Positions 1,213-12,078 of a stretch of 64,000 bases of DNA are shown in pieces. Source of the stretch: Rhodospirillales bacterium. Its GTDB lineage: Bacteria; Pseudomonadota; Alphaproteobacteria; Reyranellales; Reyranellaceae. Position 1 is the first letter of the stretch, and each line of letters begins with the position of its first letter. Position numbers and translations under genes: made by a program. Below the pieces are notes generated by a model. It worked only from the letters and a program-made list of their open reading frames with translations. It did no database searches and had not been told where the DNA came from. The stretch spans positions 1 through 64,000 of the forward strand of contig WHTW01000013.1 of the NCBI GenBank assembly GCA_009377525.1, written 5' to 3'.

Positions 1213-1383
1213 CGCAAACTGCTTCAAAAATACAGGGACACGCCGATGTCGCTGGCCGATGCATGCATCGTTCGCATGTCGGAAATCCATGATCGGCATG
1301 CCGTGCTGACGCTGGACTCCGACTTCCTGGTCTATCGAAAGCATGGCCGAGCTTCACTCACGCTCATCCACCCGGCGACATAG
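1213..1383 (+). pseudogene. PIN-domain (VapC-like) toxin, C-terminal fragment
   Basis: The 56 residues between the intron boundary and the stop read as the end of a PIN ribonuclease. TPMSLADACIVRMSE carries the conserved third acidic residue, LTLDSDFLVYRKHG is the last core strand with the terminal Asp, and the frame closes at TAG. The N-terminal half must lie to the left of the intron, outside the window. Antisense insertion of the intron at 1212/1213 inactivates the gene. Known members of this family degrade RNA as toxins of toxin-antitoxin pairs. Confidence 0.7.
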
Positions 1384-3659: not shown

Positions 3660-3686
3660 GCCGTCCGGAAACCGGACGGCTTTTTT
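3660..3686 (+). terminator. Rho-independent terminator after the aminotransferase
   Basis: A nine-base-pair GC-rich stem (GCCGTCCGG / CCGGACGGC) with an AAA loop is followed directly by six T. It lies 55 bases after the aminotransferase stop. Confidence 0.9.
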
Positions 3687-3690
3687 GAAT

Positions 3691-3723
3691 TGGTTGCGGG
3701 GGCTCGATTGGAACTTACGACCT
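3691..3723 (-). other. tRNA 3'-end-like fragment
   Basis: Read on the minus strand, this stretch looks like the last third of a tRNA: a T-loop-like GTTCCAATC, then GCCCCCGCAACCA ending in CCA. The T-stem does not pair well and no D or anticodon arm precedes it, so it is not a working tRNA. It sits between the terminator and the Wadjet operon. Sequences of this kind are often left as attachment sites when an element integrates in a tRNA 3' end. Confidence 0.4.
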
Positions 3724-3901
3724 CTCGCAGCACCACCGGGACGCCACGACCACTATGCTGAGCGGTCTTCCATTCGTCTCGTCGTAGCCTGGAGGTCGCA
3801 GCGGCTCGGCATGTTATGAACACCTGCCACCACCATGCCGGCTTGACGGCCGACAAGAACAAAGCAAAAACGCCAAGGTAAACCCGCTGGAGCGGCCTTC
3901 C

Positions 3902-4727
3902 GTGAAGATTGCGAGCCATGCCGCCGACTTGTTCCGGCACGTCAGTGCCGACAAGGCCGCCTTCTACCGCTGCATCATGGACGTCTTCGCCACCGCGAAG
4001 CGGCAATACCGCCTGGTTCCTCAGCACCGGACACGCGCCGCCACAGGCGGAGCTGCTGCGCGCGCGGGCGCGGTCGGCCATCCCGCAGCTCCTGTCGGCG
4101 ATCGCCGCCCTCAACGAGCGGCGCAGCGGACGCAGCGACCGCTCGTCGGATTTCCGGGTCTTGGCCCAGTGGTTCGCCGCCTGCCGCAACGACGGGGACG
4201 CCCACCGGCTGGCGCGAGCCGCTTTCGCGCTTCATCCAGCGCGGCATTTTTCGCTCAACGCCGACGCCGATGCGGAATTGCCGGCCAGCACGTCGTGGGC
4301 CGACGCCCCGCCGTTTCGCATCCATCCGCGCCTGCGCGAGTACGGCGAAGCGGCGCCGCGCGGGCCGCTGCCGCGCGTGCGCGACCGCAGCAAGGAGCGC
4401 GCCGACCTGGCGCAACAGCTCGCCGAGCAGACGCAGCAGCTCGAGGCGGCGCGGCGGCGCCTCGCCACCGGCCGGCCGGTGCGGCTTTCCGACCTGGGCG
4501 AGCTCGACGTGCATGCCTTCGAGGTCCTGCTGGGGCTTCTGGGCGAGACACTCGGCGAGCAGAGCAGGCCGGACGACGCCGTCGCGCGGCGGACCGGCGA
4601 CGGGCTGCTTCACGTCCATCTCGAGCCGCTCGGCGCGGAAAGCCGCGCCGAGATCGCCACGCCGCGCGGCGTCTTCGCCGGCCGCGATCACGCGATCACC
4701 GTCTCGCCCGTGCAGGACGTCCGATGA
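3902..4727 (+). pseudogene. jetA: Wadjet JetA (DUF2397, kleisin), middle deleted and frameshifted
   Basis: JetA is the kleisin subunit that closes the SMC ring of the anti-plasmid Wadjet machine. The first 38 codons from GTG 3902 match the family start (LFRHVSADKAAFYRCIMDVF, then AKRQYRL). At about 4011 the homology jumps to another frame (+1) and resumes at AWFLSTGHAPPQAELLRARA, ALNERRSGRSDRSSDFRVLA, AAFALHPARHFSL, STSWADAPPF, then the C-terminal winged-helix part ending at TGA 4727. About 275 residues remain of a family usually near 500, so some 200 residues are missing, and not in frame. The downstream gene overlaps by ATGA. Loss of the central part that holds the KITE subunit should abolish complex assembly. 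Confidence 0.85.
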
Positions 4728-5986
4728 CCGCGGATCGGGACGCCGCCGACGAGGACCTGGGAGAGCGCCAGCAGCGCCTCCACCGCGAGGAGATGCGCGC
4801 CGCCCTGTGCGCCCTGCTGATGACGCCGCTGATCGACGCGGCGCACGAGGATTTCGCCGCCGTGCGCCGCCATGCCGACCGGCTGCGCGAGTGGTTTGCG
4901 CGCGAGACCGGCTGGGTCCTCCACGTCGAACGCGACGGCGCGCGCCTCTACAAGAGGCCGGCCGACCTGGTCGACGCCACGCGGGGCCTGCCCGGCTATG
5001 ACCGCCGCCGCTACGTGCTGCTGTGCCTGGCCTGCGCCGTCCTCGAGCGCGCCGACCCGCAGATCACGCTGCGCCTGCTGGGCGAGCGCCTGCTCGAGCT
5101 CGCCGCCGATCCGGCGCTCGTCGCGCTCGGCTTCACCTTCACCCTGGGCGCACAGCATGAACGGCGGGAGCTGGTGGCGGTATGCCGCACGTTGCTGGCG
5201 CTCGGCGTGCTGCAGCATGTCGCCGGCGACGAAGAAGCCTTCGTGCAGGCCGCCAGCGCAGCCGGACAAGCCGACGCGCTCTACGACGTGCATCGACGGA
5301 CGCTGGCCGGCATGCTGGCCGCGGTACGCGGCCCCTCGACCTGGATGCGGGCCGAAGCTCCCGCCTCGCTCGACGAAAGGCTGCGCGCCCTGGTCGACGA
5401 GCACGTCCCCGACAGCGACGAAGGCCGGCGTACGGCGATGCGCCACGATATCGCCCGCCGGCTCCTCGACGATCCGGTCGTCTACCTCGACAGGCTGGCG
5501 CCGGAGGTCCGCAACTACTTCCTCAATCAGCGCGGTGCCATGGCCGGCCGACTGTGCGAGGCCTCGGGCCTCGTTGCCGAGCAGAGAGCCGAAGGCCTGG
5601 CCCTGGTCGACGAGGCCGGCCTGCTGACCGACCTCGCCATGCCGTCCGAAGGCACCGATGCCCACGTCACGCTGCTCGCCGCGGATTATCTCGCCACGCG
5701 CCAGCGGCTCGATCGGGCGGCGCGCGGCGACGCTTCGGCGCAGGCCTCCGCCACGGTACGCGAGCAGGACATCGCCGAGTTCCTGCGCGACGCGCGGGAG
5801 CGCTACGGCCGCTACTGGCGCAAATCGGCGCGCGAAGCCGGCGCCGAGCGCGAGCTGGCCGCCATCGCGGTCGAGCGCCTGGAAAGGCTGCAGCTCGTCG
5901 AGCGCCGGGCAGACTTCGTCCATCCCCTGCCGGCGCTCGCCCGGTTCGCGCTGGGCGATGCCGAAGTCAGGGAAGTCTCGCCGTGA
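4724..5986 (+). CDS. jetB: Wadjet JetB (DUF2398, TIGR02678 type)
   Basis: KITE-like winged-helix subunit of type II Wadjet, 420 residues, which in the known complex binds the kleisin JetA and the SMC heads. Recognised from family order and sequence: an N-terminal helix-rich segment (MRAALCALLMTPLID), GWVLHVERDGARLYKRP, LPGYDRRRYVLLCLACAVLE with RADPQITLRLLGERLLEL, and the C-terminal YLNQRG-like FLNQRGAMAGRL. The ATG at 4724 overlaps the jetA stop (ATGA), and the next gene overlaps its stop as GTGA, so the operon is tightly coupled. The frame is open upstream all the way to the jetA start because of the jetA deletion. Confidence 0.85.
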   Translation: MTADRDAADEDLGERQQRLHREEMRAALCALLMTPLIDAAHEDFAAVRRHADRLREWFARETGWVLHVERDGARLYKRPADLVDATRGLPGYDRRRYVLLCLACAVLERADPQITLRLLGERLLELAADPALVALGFTFTLGAQHERRELVAVCRTLLALGVLQHVAGDEEAFVQAASAAGQADALYDVHRRTLAGMLAAVRGPSTWMRAEAPASLDERLRALVDEHVPDSDEGRRTAMRHDIARRLLDDPVVYLDRLAPEVRNYFLNQRGAMAGRLCEASGLVAEQRAEGLALVDEAGLLTDLAMPSEGTDAHVTLLAADYLATRQRLDRAARGDASAQASATVREQDIAEFLRDARERYGRYWRKSAREAGAERELAAIAVERLERLQLVERRADFVHPLPALARFALGDAEVREVSP

Positions 5987-8900
5987 ACGACAGCCCGATC
6001 GCACTGGCGCGGCCGCTCGACAGACCGGCGCTACCCGTCCCGACGCTGGCGCGCTGGCAACCGCTTCGTCTCGGCGTGGTGGAGCTGTTCCACTACGACA
6101 GTGAGGAGTTCTGGTTCCGTGACGGCCACCTGCTGCTGCGCGGCAACAACGGCACCGGCAAGTCCAAGGTCCTGTCGCTGACGCTGCCGTTCCTGCTCGA
6201 CGCCCAGCTCAAATCCTCGCGCATCGAGCCCGACGGCGACAGCGCCAAGAAGATGGCCTGGAACCTGTTGATGAACAGCTATTCCAGGCGAATCGGCTAT
6301 GCCTGGATCGAATTCGGCCGTCTGGCCGAGGACGGTACGCCGCATTACCTGTCTTTCGGCGCCGGGCTGTCGGCGAGGGAGGGCCGCCCGCAGGTGGAAA
6401 GCTGGTTCTTCGTCCTTGACGATGCGGCCGGCGTGCGCATCAACCAGGATCTGTGGCTGACGAGCCCGCAGCGGGTCGTGCTCACCAAGGAGCGGCTGCG
6501 CGAACTGCTCGAGGGCCGCGGCCAGGTTTTCGACAACGCCGGGCAGTACCGCCGGGCCGTGGACGAGCGGCTGTTTCGCCTCGGCCCCAAGCGCTACGAC
6601 GCGTTGATGGACACGTTGATCCAGCTACGGCAGCCGCAACTGTCGAAGAAGCCCGACGAAACCGGCCTGTCGAATGCGCTAACGGAGGCCTTGCCGCCCC
6701 TGCCATCGGAACTGCTGGGCGACGTGGCCGAAGCGCTCGGCCAGCTCGAGGAGGATCGCCGGCAACTCGAGGAGTATCAGGCCCTCTCGCGGGCCGTCGG
6801 CAGGTTCGAGCAGCGCTATCGCGTCTATGCCGGCACCCAGAGCCGCCGGCAGGCGCGCACGCTGCGTCAGGCCCAGACCGAGTTCGACAACGCCAGCCGG
6901 GCGCGCGGCGAGGCGCTGGCGAGACTGCAGGACGCGCAAGCCGAGGAAGAGCAGGCACGGACGCGTCATGCCGATGCCGACACCGCGCTCAAGCGGGCAC
7001 GCGCGCGGCGCGACGCCCTGCTCGATGATCCGACGATGCGGGACGCCAAGCAGCTCGAAGCTGCCGCGAGGGACCTGGACGCGCGCCAGAATGCGCTGCG
7101 CGATGCCACGGGAACGGCCGAGGAGGCGGGCCGGCGACTGCAGGTCAGGATCGACGAGACGGCGCATAGCGAGCGACTCGCCCGCCAGACCGAACATCGG
7201 GTGACGGCGGCGCGTCAAGAGGTCGCGATCCACGCCGATGCGGCGGGCATCGCTGCCGCGCATGGCGACAGCCCGCTTTCTCACTTCGCGGCGGCGGCGC
7301 TGGCCGAGCAGACGCCGGCGGATTTCGACAAGGCTCGCAGCGGGCTCGCGGCGCTCGTTCGCGGCCGGAACGAGCAGATCGCCTTGCTGCGCCGCCGCCA
7401 CGCCGAGGTGGAACGCGCCGAATCGATCCACGCTCAGCGGCGCCAGATGCAGGACGAGCGGCGCGCCGAGGCCGAGACGGCTTCACGACGGCGCGACGAT
7501 GCCGACGTCGAGGTCGAGCGCCTGGGAACCTCCCTCGTGGCGGACTGGGAGCGCCACTATGCGACGCTCGAGCAGCTGATGGTCGATCCCGAAGACGCCA
7601 GCACCGCCCTCGCCGCCATGGCCGAATGGGCGGTGGCGCTGCAGGGAGAAAATCCGGCGCGGCTGTTCTTGCAGGCAGCGCAGCAGCGCGCCAGCCAGGA
7701 TTTCGCGGAGCGCGCCGCCGCGCTCGACGGCCAGCGCCGGACATTGGAGCAGGAGCGCCGCGACCTGGAAGAAGAGCGCGGCCGTCTCGAGGCAGGCATC
7801 TCCCTGGACCCACCGGCGCCCCATACGCGCGCCGCCGACGTCCGAGCCGACCGGCAGGGCGCTCCGTTCTGGCAACTGATCGACTTTCACGACGCGGTGG
7901 TGGCGCCGCAGCGCGCGCTGCTCGAAGCCGCCCTGGAAGCGGCGGGCTTGCTGGACGCCTGGGTCTCTCCCGACGGCCGACTTCAAGCCGGCGAGGACGG
8001 CCGGCTGCTTCACGACACGCAGCTCGTGGAGCGTCGGGCACTGTCCTCCTCGCTCGCCGGCTGGCTGCGGCCAGCGGTGCCCGAGGGCAGCACGGTCTCC
8101 GGCAGCACGATCGAGCGGATCCTCTCCGCGATCGCGTGTGCGGACGACGATGTCCCCGAGAGCGAAGCCTGGCTATCGCCCGACGGGCGCTTTCGTCTCG
8201 GTGCCTTGGTGGGCGCCTGGGCGAAGCCGGCGGCGGTCTACATTGGCCATGCGGCTCGCGAGGCGGCACGCCGGCAACGACTCGCCGAAGTCGCCGAACG
8301 CCTCGAGCGGTTGTCGGACGAGATGGCCGGGCTGCGCGCCGCCGACGATCGACTGGCGGACGACCGCCATGTGGCGGGCGAAGAGTGGCGCCGGGCTCCC
8401 GCCGACGATGGCTTGCGGGCGGCTCACGCGACGGCCGCCGCCTGCGGTCGCGAGGTGCAGCGCGCCCGCGAGAAATTGGCCGAAGCCGATCTCCGCTGCA
8501 GCGAAGCCTTCGACACCCTGAAGGCCGCACGAGAGCGCCTGGCCACGGATGCAGCCGACCTTCGGCTGCCGGCAGCGCCCGAAGCGCTAGCCGCGATCGA
8601 GGCGGCGCTCGATCGCTATCGCGATTCGCTGGCCCAGCTCGTGCAGGCGACCCACGAGCTGCGCCTGGCGCTGCCGGAGCTGCAGCGCCAACGTTCGCGC
8701 GAGGAGGAGGCGCGCAACGACGCGGCAAAAAGCGAAGGACGGCTCGCGACGGCGCGAAACGAGGCCGAACAGGCCGCCGCCCGGCTCGAAGCGCTGCGCG
8801 AAGCGGTCGGCGTCAAGGTCGAGGAGCTGCAGCGGAAGCTGTCCGATGCCCGTCTCGCCGTCGATGCCACCGAGGAGGCCGTCAAGCGAGCCGACGGGGC

Positions 8901-10155
8901 TCTCCGCGAGTCGGGGGAGGCGCGCGCTATCGCCACCGAGCGGGCCGAGTCGGCCGAAACAGCCCTACGGGAGCGCACCGCCGCCCGTGCGCAGACGATC
9001 GTGCGGCTGCAATCGTTCGCGCGGACCGGCCTGCTGTCGTCGGCGATGCCGCAGCTCGAACTGCCCGATACGACGGCAGCATGGACGATCGATCCTGCCC
9101 TCACACTGGCGCGGCGGATCGAGCAGGCCTTGTCGGAGCTCGGGGACGACGACGAGGCCTGGAACCGCGTGCAGCGGCAGATCAACGAGGAATTGACCGA
9201 GCTGCAACGCGCGCTCAGCGCGCTCGGCCACCAGGCATCGGCCGAGACCACCGACTGGGGACTCGTCGTCCACATCACGTACCAGAATCACGCCGAGCGT
9301 CCGGATCGCCTCGCCGCCCGCCTCGCCGACGAGATCGCCCAGCGCTCCGAGCTGCTGACGGCCAAGGAACGGGCCGTGCTGGAGAACCATCTGCAGGCCG
9401 AGATCGCGGCCGAGATCCAGCGTCTTCTGATGAGTGCCGAAAAACAGCGAGATGCCATCAACAGGGAGCTGTACAAGCGGCCGACCTCGACCGGCGTCCG
9501 CTATCGGCTCCTGTGGCAGCCGCTGGCCGAGGAAGAAGGCGCGCCCCTGGGCCTGGACGCGGCGCGCAAACGGCTGCTCAACACCAGCGCCGATCTCTGG
9601 TCGGCGGACGATCGCAACGTGGTCGGCACCATGCTTCAACGGCGCATCGCGACCGAACGCGAGCGCACCGACGCGGGCGCCGGCCGGGACAGCGGCAGCC
9701 TGGTCGATCAACTGGCCCGCGCCCTCGACTATCGCCGCTGGCACCGCTTCCGCGTCGAGCGCTGGCAGGACAGGCAGTGGCGCAAACTGTCCGGACCGGC
9801 CTCGAGCGGCGAGCGGGCGCTCGGCCTCACCGTGCCGCTCTTCGCCGCCGTCGCGAGCTTCTACAGCCAAGGCAGCTACCCCCTGGCGCCGCGATTGATA
9901 TTGCTCGACGAAGCCTTTGCCGGCATCGACGACGCGGCGCGCGCCCATTGCATGGGCCTGATCCGCGAATTCGACCTCGACTTCGTCATCACCAGCGAAC
10001 GCGAATGGGCGTGCTATGCCGAGCTCCCCGGCGTCGCCATCTGCCAGCTCCAGCGGCGCGAGGGCGTCGATGCCGTGTTCGTGTCGCGCTGGACCTGGGA
10101 TGGCCGGGCCAGGGTACGCGAAGCCGATCCGGATCGCCGGTTCTCGCCGGCATGA
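5983..10155 (+). CDS. jetC: Wadjet JetC (SMC-like ATPase, TIGR02680 type)
   Basis: Condensin-like motor of the Wadjet system, 1390 residues, expected to extrude DNA loops on small circular plasmids and present them to JetD. Walker A is LLLRGNNGTGKSK (about residues 54-62). Two long Arg/Glu/Ala-rich coiled coils flank a central hinge region near residues 620-770. The ABC signature is SGPASSGERALGL (near 1268) and Walker B is LILLDEAFAGIDD (near 1305). The motifs are intact and the length is normal for the family. The start is GTG 5983, overlapping the jetB stop; the stop overlaps the jetD ATG. Confidence 0.92.
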   Translation: MNDSPIALARPLDRPALPVPTLARWQPLRLGVVELFHYDSEEFWFRDGHLLLRGNNGTGKSKVLSLTLPFLLDAQLKSSRIEPDGDSAKKMAWNLLMNSYSRRIGYAWIEFGRLAEDGTPHYLSFGAGLSAREGRPQVESWFFVLDDAAGVRINQDLWLTSPQRVVLTKERLRELLEGRGQVFDNAGQYRRAVDERLFRLGPKRYDALMDTLIQLRQPQLSKKPDETGLSNALTEALPPLPSELLGDVAEALGQLEEDRRQLEEYQALSRAVGRFEQRYRVYAGTQSRRQARTLRQAQTEFDNASRARGEALARLQDAQAEEEQARTRHADADTALKRARARRDALLDDPTMRDAKQLEAAARDLDARQNALRDATGTAEEAGRRLQVRIDETAHSERLARQTEHRVTAARQEVAIHADAAGIAAAHGDSPLSHFAAAALAEQTPADFDKARSGLAALVRGRNEQIALLRRRHAEVERAESIHAQRRQMQDERRAEAETASRRRDDADVEVERLGTSLVADWERHYATLEQLMVDPEDASTALAAMAEWAVALQGENPARLFLQAAQQRASQDFAERAAALDGQRRTLEQERRDLEEERGRLEAGISLDPPAPHTRAADVRADRQGAPFWQLIDFHDAVVAPQRALLEAALEAAGLLDAWVSPDGRLQAGEDGRLLHDTQLVERRALSSSLAGWLRPAVPEGSTVSGSTIERILSAIACADDDVPESEAWLSPDGRFRLGALVGAWAKPAAVYIGHAAREAARRQRLAEVAERLERLSDEMAGLRAADDRLADDRHVAGEEWRRAPADDGLRAAHATAAACGREVQRAREKLAEADLRCSEAFDTLKAARERLATDAADLRLPAAPEALAAIEAALDRYRDSLAQLVQATHELRLALPELQRQRSREEEARNDAAKSEGRLATARNEAEQAAARLEALREAVGVKVEELQRKLSDARLAVDATEEAVKRADGALRESGEARAIATERAESAETALRERTAARAQTIVRLQSFARTGLLSSAMPQLELPDTTAAWTIDPALTLARRIEQALSELGDDDEAWNRVQRQINEELTELQRALSALGHQASAETTDWGLVVHITYQNHAERPDRLAARLADEIAQRSELLTAKERAVLENHLQAEIAAEIQRLLMSAEKQRDAINRELYKRPTSTGVRYRLLWQPLAEEEGAPLGLDAARKRLLNTSADLWSADDRNVVGTMLQRRIATERERTDAGAGRDSGSLVDQLARALDYRRWHRFRVERWQDRQWRKLSGPASSGERALGLTVPLFAAVASFYSQGSYPLAPRLILLDEAFAGIDDAARAHCMGLIREFDLDFVITSEREWACYAELPGVAICQLQRREGVDAVFVSRWTWDGRARVREADPDRRFSPA

Positions 10156-11429
10156 GCGCGCCGGCCGACGACCGGCTGCAACGCCTGCTCGGCGGGGAGC
10201 ATCTCGCTCCCCTGCGCAGGCGTCTGCGGCGGCGTTTCGAGCGCGCGCCGCTCGACCGCGCCATCGGGCAAATCCGAGTGGACGGGCTTGCCGCGGAGGA
10301 ACATACGGCGCTGGCATCGCTGCTGGGGAGACCGCAACGCTACGCCGGTTCGCTGCAATTCGACCTCGAGCTGATCGACGGCAACCTGCGCCGCTCCGGC
10401 GTCGCCCGCTCGCTGCGCGACGCGCTCGAACGGCTCGACGGTCCGATCACCCACGTCGCGGAGGCGCGTCTTCGGCTGGAATTGCGCTGGTCGGCCGTCG
10501 TTGACAGCTGCCCGCATCCCGATCTTCTCAGCATGTTGGGCAAAGCGGAGGGCATAGGCCTGCTCAAGCGCCTCGCCCGTCAGGACGTAGCCATGGCAAG
10601 CGAGCTGTGCCGTTCCGCCGAGGCGGTATTGCGCCATCTGCCGGCAAAAGGAGTGACGCGTTCGCAACTCGCCGCGAGCGTCCTGGGCGATGCCCATGCC
10701 CTCGATAACGGGCAGGCCGTGGCGACGCTGGTGCTCGCGGTCAGGCGTCGGCTCGGTCCGCCTTCGCCCGAGGACGAAGACGGCCAAGCGCAGCCGGCAT
10801 CCGACGGCCCCCCACTGCGGCTAGGCAGCGCGGAACGCGCCCGTGACATCTGGGCGAGAGCTGGCGTCCTCGTCAACCAACTGGCGCGGCCGGCGCTCTT
10901 TCTGAACCTGCCGACCAAGTCGACCGACGGTGGCGGTGGTCGCACCGGGGAGCCGTCATACCTGTCGCTGCGATCGTTGCTGCGCTCTCCGCCCTCTTGG
11001 GACGCAACGGGGCGCCGGGTCTTCGTGTGCGAGAATCCCAACCTTGTCGCCATCGCGGCAGATCGCTGGGGCCGCCACTGCGCACCCCTCATCTGCACCG
11101 ACGGGATGCCTGCCGCCAGCCAGCGCGCGCTTCTATCCCAGCTTGCGCAGGCTGACGCGCGGCTTTGCTACCATGGAGACTTCGATTGGCCCGGCCTGCG
11201 CATCGGCAATCACGTCATGCGAGCCTACGGGGCAACACCGTGGCGTTTCGGCGCGGCCGACTATGTGGCTGCAGCCCGGATGGCGCCATCGCGAGCGCAG
11301 CGACTCGATGGAGGTGCCGTCGAGGCCTCGTGGGACGAGGCTCTGGCAACAGCCATGCGCGAGCTCGGCATCGCTATCGCCGAGGAAGCGACGGCCGCTG
11401 CGTTGTTACCCGATCTGGATGATCGATAG
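10152..11429 (+). CDS. jetD: Wadjet JetD (DUF2399, Toprim/topoisomerase VI-like nuclease)
   Basis: Nuclease subunit of type II Wadjet, 425 residues, which in studied systems cleaves the DNA of small plasmids once the SMC complex has sized it. The Toprim-type fold is visible as RVFVCENPNLVAIA (metal-binding Glu near residue 294) and YHGDFDWPGLRIGN (DxD near 343-345), followed by the helix EASWDEALATAM. ATG 10152 overlaps the jetC stop by four bases. The gene appears complete. A decayed relative of its 3' end lies at 1390-1660. Confidence 0.88.
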   Translation: MSAPADDRLQRLLGGEHLAPLRRRLRRRFERAPLDRAIGQIRVDGLAAEEHTALASLLGRPQRYAGSLQFDLELIDGNLRRSGVARSLRDALERLDGPITHVAEARLRLELRWSAVVDSCPHPDLLSMLGKAEGIGLLKRLARQDVAMASELCRSAEAVLRHLPAKGVTRSQLAASVLGDAHALDNGQAVATLVLAVRRRLGPPSPEDEDGQAQPASDGPPLRLGSAERARDIWARAGVLVNQLARPALFLNLPTKSTDGGGGRTGEPSYLSLRSLLRSPPSWDATGRRVFVCENPNLVAIAADRWGRHCAPLICTDGMPAASQRALLSQLAQADARLCYHGDFDWPGLRIGNHVMRAYGATPWRFGAADYVAAARMAPSRAQRLDGGAVEASWDEALATAMRELGIAIAEEATAAALLPDLDDR

Positions 11430-11511: not shown

Positions 11512-12078
11512 TCATCTCTGACGATAGAAGAGCGCCCGTCCGGCAGGGATGAGCTGAAGGAGGATGTCGTAGTCGCCGACATTCGCGGTAAGCACGACCA
11601 AGCCAAGCTTCTGCGCCTGCAGGAACAACACGCAGTCCTGCAGCGCACGCAGCCTGCCGTCCCTTTCATATCCCCGGAGGCGACATAGGATCCCTGAGAG
11701 CAGCGCGGCCCTTCCAAGAACTTCGACGTCCGGCGCAAAAACCCGATGGGGCGGCATTGCCTTGAGCTGCTTGCCGATCTCGGCAATGACGCCGGCGGTC
11801 CGTGCGTCCGACGGGTCAAGGGCGCCGACAGTGTGCATCAGTTCCTGGATCGCAACAGTCGAATGGTTGACCTGGCGCTGGGCGATAAGGTCATCCAAGA
11901 CCTGAGGCGAACGATCCTGCATTTGATCGATATAGACACAAGTATCGAGCAAGAGCCCTTGGCCGCCGATTGGAGCTGTATCGACGAATGGCAACGCGTC
12001 GTCGCGACGTCGCGCCAAAGTCGTTCGCGGATCGAACCGCGCCCATCGCCGTGTTGCCTCGAAGTCGAACTCGGCCAC
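11512..12078 (-). CDS. PIN-domain toxin (VapC-like)
   Basis: Probable endoribonuclease toxin of 188 residues. PIN signatures are in order: LLLDTCVYIDQM (first Asp), STVAIQELMH (conserved Glu), RALQDCVLFLQAQKLGLVVL (third acidic residue) and TANVGDYDILLQL (last Asp). It has about 38 extra residues before the PIN core. The start is GTG 12078, one base after the antitoxin stop, so the two are one transcript. It lies convergent to jetD with an 80-base gap. The partner is not a standard VapB by sequence, so the exact TA family is open. Confidence 0.8.
   Translation of the reverse strand: MAEFDFEATRRWARFDPRTTLARRRDDALPFVDTAPIGGQGLLLDTCVYIDQMQDRSPQVLDDLIAQRQVNHSTVAIQELMHTVGALDPSDARTAGVIAEIGKQLKAMPPHRVFAPDVEVLGRAALLSGILCRLRGYERDGRLRALQDCVLFLQAQKLGLVVLTANVGDYDILLQLIPAGRALFYRQR

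Follow-up and report, generated by a model that had tools for sequence, protein, structure and literature searches.

A type II Wadjet operon very probably inactivated by a 695-bp deletion inside its kleisin gene jetA

The window analyzed here is the whole 64,000-nucleotide stretch at the start of an 81-kb contig from a Rhodospirillales draft genome. At positions 3902 to 11429, it carries a type II Wadjet operon that was very probably inactivated, and probably recently so, by the loss of 695 bp of jetA sequence lying between short near-repeats. The genes follow the order jetA-jetB-jetC-jetD in a single operon, with neighboring genes overlapping or adjoining. All four gene families were typed by PADLOC profiles and supported by Pfam domains (DUF2397, DUF2398, SbcC-type Walker B, and DUF3323+DUF2399). 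The same order and the same four families characterize known type II Wadjet systems (JetABCD; TIGR02677/DUF2397, DUF2398, TIGR02680, and DUF3323+DUF2399), for example, nvJET of N. vireti (PDB 9QE0/9QE1).

The jetA lesion

As the initial annotation had proposed, profile matches showed that jetA is present as its first 38 codons and a C-terminal half located in another frame. The first piece (3902 to 4015, + strand; JetA2 profile, 4e-10) begins at the ancestral GTG start, at the same position as in the jetA gene of relative L008, and its codons 1–38 correspond to JetA2 profile positions 14–48. The second piece (4011 to 4727, + strand; 238 codons) matched TIGR02677 with an E value of 2.8e-85 and PADLOC JetA2 with 1e-96, covers JetA2 positions 278–513, and continues from the junction to the normal jetA stop at 4727. 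Only positions 2–30 and 256–492 of TIGR02677 are left, in two frames. Since no full-length JetA is encoded, the operon was not filed as a working type II Wadjet; it is classed as an inactivated derivative of one.

To define the lesion, the locus was aligned with its intact relatives. Full-length jetA occupies the same operon position in five relatives, while in L009 the gene is cut by the contig end. Ungapped comparison revealed that 695 bp are missing relative to L005, L006, and L007, and 698 bp relative to L008, which has one extra codon. Because neither length is divisible by three, the frame changes at the junction: reading jumps from codon 38 to approximately residue 270 of the relatives, ~232 of ~500 JetA residues are gone, and residues 270–507 are retained. 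A loss of about 200 residues from the middle of the kleisin had been suggested earlier; the internal loss was confirmed, while its size is larger and it takes away most of the N-terminal half rather than a middle part alone. The junction (4010 to 4015, + strand) consists of six bases common to both jetA pieces, which read CGCCTG here. CGGCTG is found on both edges of the corresponding segment in L005 and near versions in the other relatives, so that a near-repeat, CGSCTG, marks both edges. Judged from these sequences, deletion between short direct repeats is the simplest origin of the lesion.

The deleted part comprises the remainder of the N-terminal domain and a long helical region. In the alignment of JetA proteins (A1), which includes the 38-codon remnant, the lost residues 39 to ~270 are well conserved among relatives. 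In the AlphaFold model of L008 JetA, which is weak overall (mean pLDDT of 59), the lost part holds helices 42–70 and long helices 86–272, some stretches of the latter being modeled more confidently. Foldseek matched this weak model to 9QE0 with a TM-score of 0.26, a value that speaks for family identity only. Residues 13–453 of the intact protein matched the solved Wadjet-II JetA of N. vireti (9QE0; E value of 7e-30). Both JetC and JetA of the operon studied here are similar to the solved nvJET complex; the difference is that jetA lacks ~232 residues and its reading frame. Programmed frameshifting was considered as a way to rejoin the two jetA parts and was rejected: no slippery sequence was seen by eye at the junction, and the 232 residues would stay missing in any case.

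Partner genes, age of the break, and the chimeric reading frame

The remaining three genes are complete, with their ATPase and nuclease motifs in place, as was noted before. All three are on the + strand. jetB (4724 to 5986), encoding the KITE subunit, matched PADLOC JetB2 (6e-139) and Pfam DUF2398 (4e-98). jetC (5983 to 10155) encodes a 1390–amino acid SMC ATPase that matched PADLOC JetC2 with an E value of 0 and N. vireti Wadjet-II JetC (9QE0), and has its Walker A, signature, and Walker B motifs at residues 54, 1274, and 1305. jetD (10152 to 11429), encoding a Toprim nuclease with DUF3323+DUF2399, matched PADLOC JetD2 (1e-133) and retains the Toprim E and DxD motifs (CENPN and DFDWPG). No stops or frameshifts were found when jetB, jetC, and jetD were inspected.

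Selection was estimated with an MG94-type branch codon model written for this analysis, using five taxa and a topology fixed from the concatenated data. On the operon’s own branch, dN/dS was 0.13 for jetB, 0.13 for jetC, and 0.17 for jetD, all significantly below 1 (2dlnL of 7.8, 45, and 32, respectively). The combination of purifying selection and the lack of lesions in the partner genes suggests that the break is probably recent: it appears to be young relative to the split from L008, and most of the operon’s own branch may predate the deletion. For the C-terminal part of jetA, the own-branch value was 0.225; since this value is statistically indistinguishable from both the background (0.104) and 1, selection data cannot prove this part dead. 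The own branch of jetD is longer (0.16, compared to 0.045–0.08 for jetB and jetC), and the jetD tree is weakly different (support of 71), which may suggest recombination of this gene.

The deletion had one further consequence, absent from the initial annotation: it placed the jetA start in frame with jetB. The frame from 3902 runs open through the C-terminal part of jetA, where it is the wrong frame, and then enters jetB, giving a 694-codon open reading frame (3902 to 5986, + strand) composed of 38 amino acids of JetA, 236 out-of-frame amino acids, and complete JetB. The chimera was rejected as a conserved feature. Since three of four relatives have stops in this alternative frame, its openness here is attributed to chance in GC-rich DNA. 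The jetA stop shares an ATGA (4724 to 4727) with the jetB start, an arrangement that suggests translational coupling of the two genes. Ribosomes starting at the GTG at 3902 would instead read out of frame into jetB and add a 274-residue N-terminal extension to JetB; for them, the stop/start coupling would be lost, with a presumed effect on jetB translation. Since an AGGA lies shortly upstream of the jetB ATG, jetB may also start independently. The N terminus of JetB in type I systems bears an IFDR motif that is contacted by JetD (PMC10586767); by analogy, the extension could disturb the nuclease as well.

Consequences for function and competing explanations

In type I systems, the N terminus of the kleisin dimerizes two motors, and plasmid suppression in B. 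subtilis required every one of the four subunits (PMC10586767). Here the frame shift prevents any kleisin from being made from the ancestral start. If the JetA requirement can be carried over from type I systems, the deletion, which takes away what follows in the N-terminal domain together with the long helical region, would leave JetA without what a dimeric motor needs. JetC should then be unable to assemble into a closed, dimeric motor that extrudes loops and activates the nuclease JetD. Plasmid exclusion by the operon is therefore predicted to be absent, and the host is expected to tolerate small circular plasmids. We infer that the system is inactive, which was also the expectation before this analysis and remains its best reading.

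The competing explanation that survives best, though improbable, is that the living organism has an undamaged jetA and that the deletion stems from an artefact of assembly or of strain mixture. The genome is a 7.35-Mb draft assembly of 208 contigs, and the intact state of the other operon genes under purifying selection would also fit an unbroken system. However, the join lies inside a contig, its edges and frames are clean, and the ~6 bases shared by the edges should be far too short for a false assembler join. The missing piece is not orphaned elsewhere either: a search of the assembly for the ~230 lost JetA residues found none (best E value of 0.3).

It is less probable still that the cell continues to produce the C-terminal half of JetA and that this half acts as a mini-kleisin, alone or together with the N-terminal peptide. 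The frame of this part has accumulated no stop, is open back to 3906, and contains TTG (3909), ATG (3918), and GTG (3945) codons; a start at ATG 3918 would yield 31 junk residues followed by JetA from the junction onward. The C-terminal part also continues to match the type II JetA solved in 9QE0. Nevertheless, such a product would lack the N-terminal domain and the long helices, both of which every relative conserves, and its leader, junk read out of frame, would have no convincing ribosome-binding site. The list of start codons revealed no ATG of the remnant’s own inside true jetA sequence. No similarly shortened JetA was found in any relative: all full-scoring matches in the genus and phylum samples were full length, and weak partial matches were short stretches in large open frames. 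We regard as equally doubtful that JetA shortened through an internal start, or the JetA-JetB chimera, still sustains JetBCD in a complex whose activity is altered and non-dimeric.

The use of another cellular kleisin by JetBCD, raised earlier as an alternative to inactivity, found no support and is the least credible of the explanations. In the 7.35-Mb assembly, jetA has no second copy (a TIGR02677 search gave no other match), and neither does jetC; a type I JetA (DUF3375) is likewise missing, and housekeeping ScpA, present as in many bacteria, was the sole other kleisin found in the genome. Kleisin-SMC interfaces are specific, and ScpA belongs to a different SMC family.

Genomic setting and significance

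The Wadjet operons most closely related to this one, those of Reyranella sp. E6 bin.68 (L008) and of a Rhodospirillales metagenome-assembled genome (L005), come from two genomes of the same genus and belong to the same subfamily, with JetC ~78% identical. In both, jetA is intact and the genomic surroundings differ from those seen here. DNA homology to them is confined to the operon (about 3835 to 11420), with no match in the flanks, and jetA was found in only 2 of 193 sampled relatives, not counting the operon’s own genome. These sequence comparisons suggest that the operon was probably acquired horizontally and is mobile between genomes.

Several other elements lie around the operon. A fragment of a tRNA-Met 3′ end (3678 to 3723), ~120 bp upstream of where homology begins, is 85% identical to a genuine tRNA-Met gene on contig C197 and plausibly represents an old integration site. 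At the contig end lies a truncated group II intron (1 to 1214, − strand; Rfam RF02005 at 959 to 1177) with a reverse transcriptase open reading frame (10 to 903); a second copy on contig C169 is 92% identical across 663 to 1214. Adjoining this intron, ~2.2 kb upstream of the operon, is a frameshifted remnant of another type II jetD, covering the C-terminal Toprim part (1412 to 1675, + strand; DUF2399, 3.6e-7) and 74% identical at the DNA level to the operon’s own jetD. By its sequence, this relic is evidence of an older, decayed second Wadjet at the same place. Open reading frames at 1223 to 1383 (+ strand) and 11512 to 12078 (− strand), on either side of the region, resemble, on visual inspection, PIN-type toxin genes or their remnants (LADACIVRMSEIHDRHAVLTLDSDF; LLLDTCVYIDQMQ); Pfam at 1e-3 gave no match for either.

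An SMC motor and a nuclease left without a kleisin had been called unusual. This was overstated, since inactivated Wadjets are documented (PMC10586767, PMC9252829). A laboratory strain of M. smegmatis carries a null mutation in EptABCD and shows high plasmid uptake (PMC10586767), as does C. cellulovorans with a spontaneous jetABCD deletion (PMC12287153), and the PADLOC paper shows an example of a frameshifted jetC (PMC9252829). The present case is likewise a loss of Wadjet, here through a deletion within jetA that spared jetBCD. It is ordinary biology, an event of a known kind that reveals no new mechanism. Overall, the locus offers a clean natural kleisin knock-out in a type II Wadjet whose motor and nuclease genes are intact, and it illustrates how small deletions switch off anti-plasmid systems. 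Since the TIGR02677 match is still above the cut-off, family-based annotation could count a very likely dead system as present.
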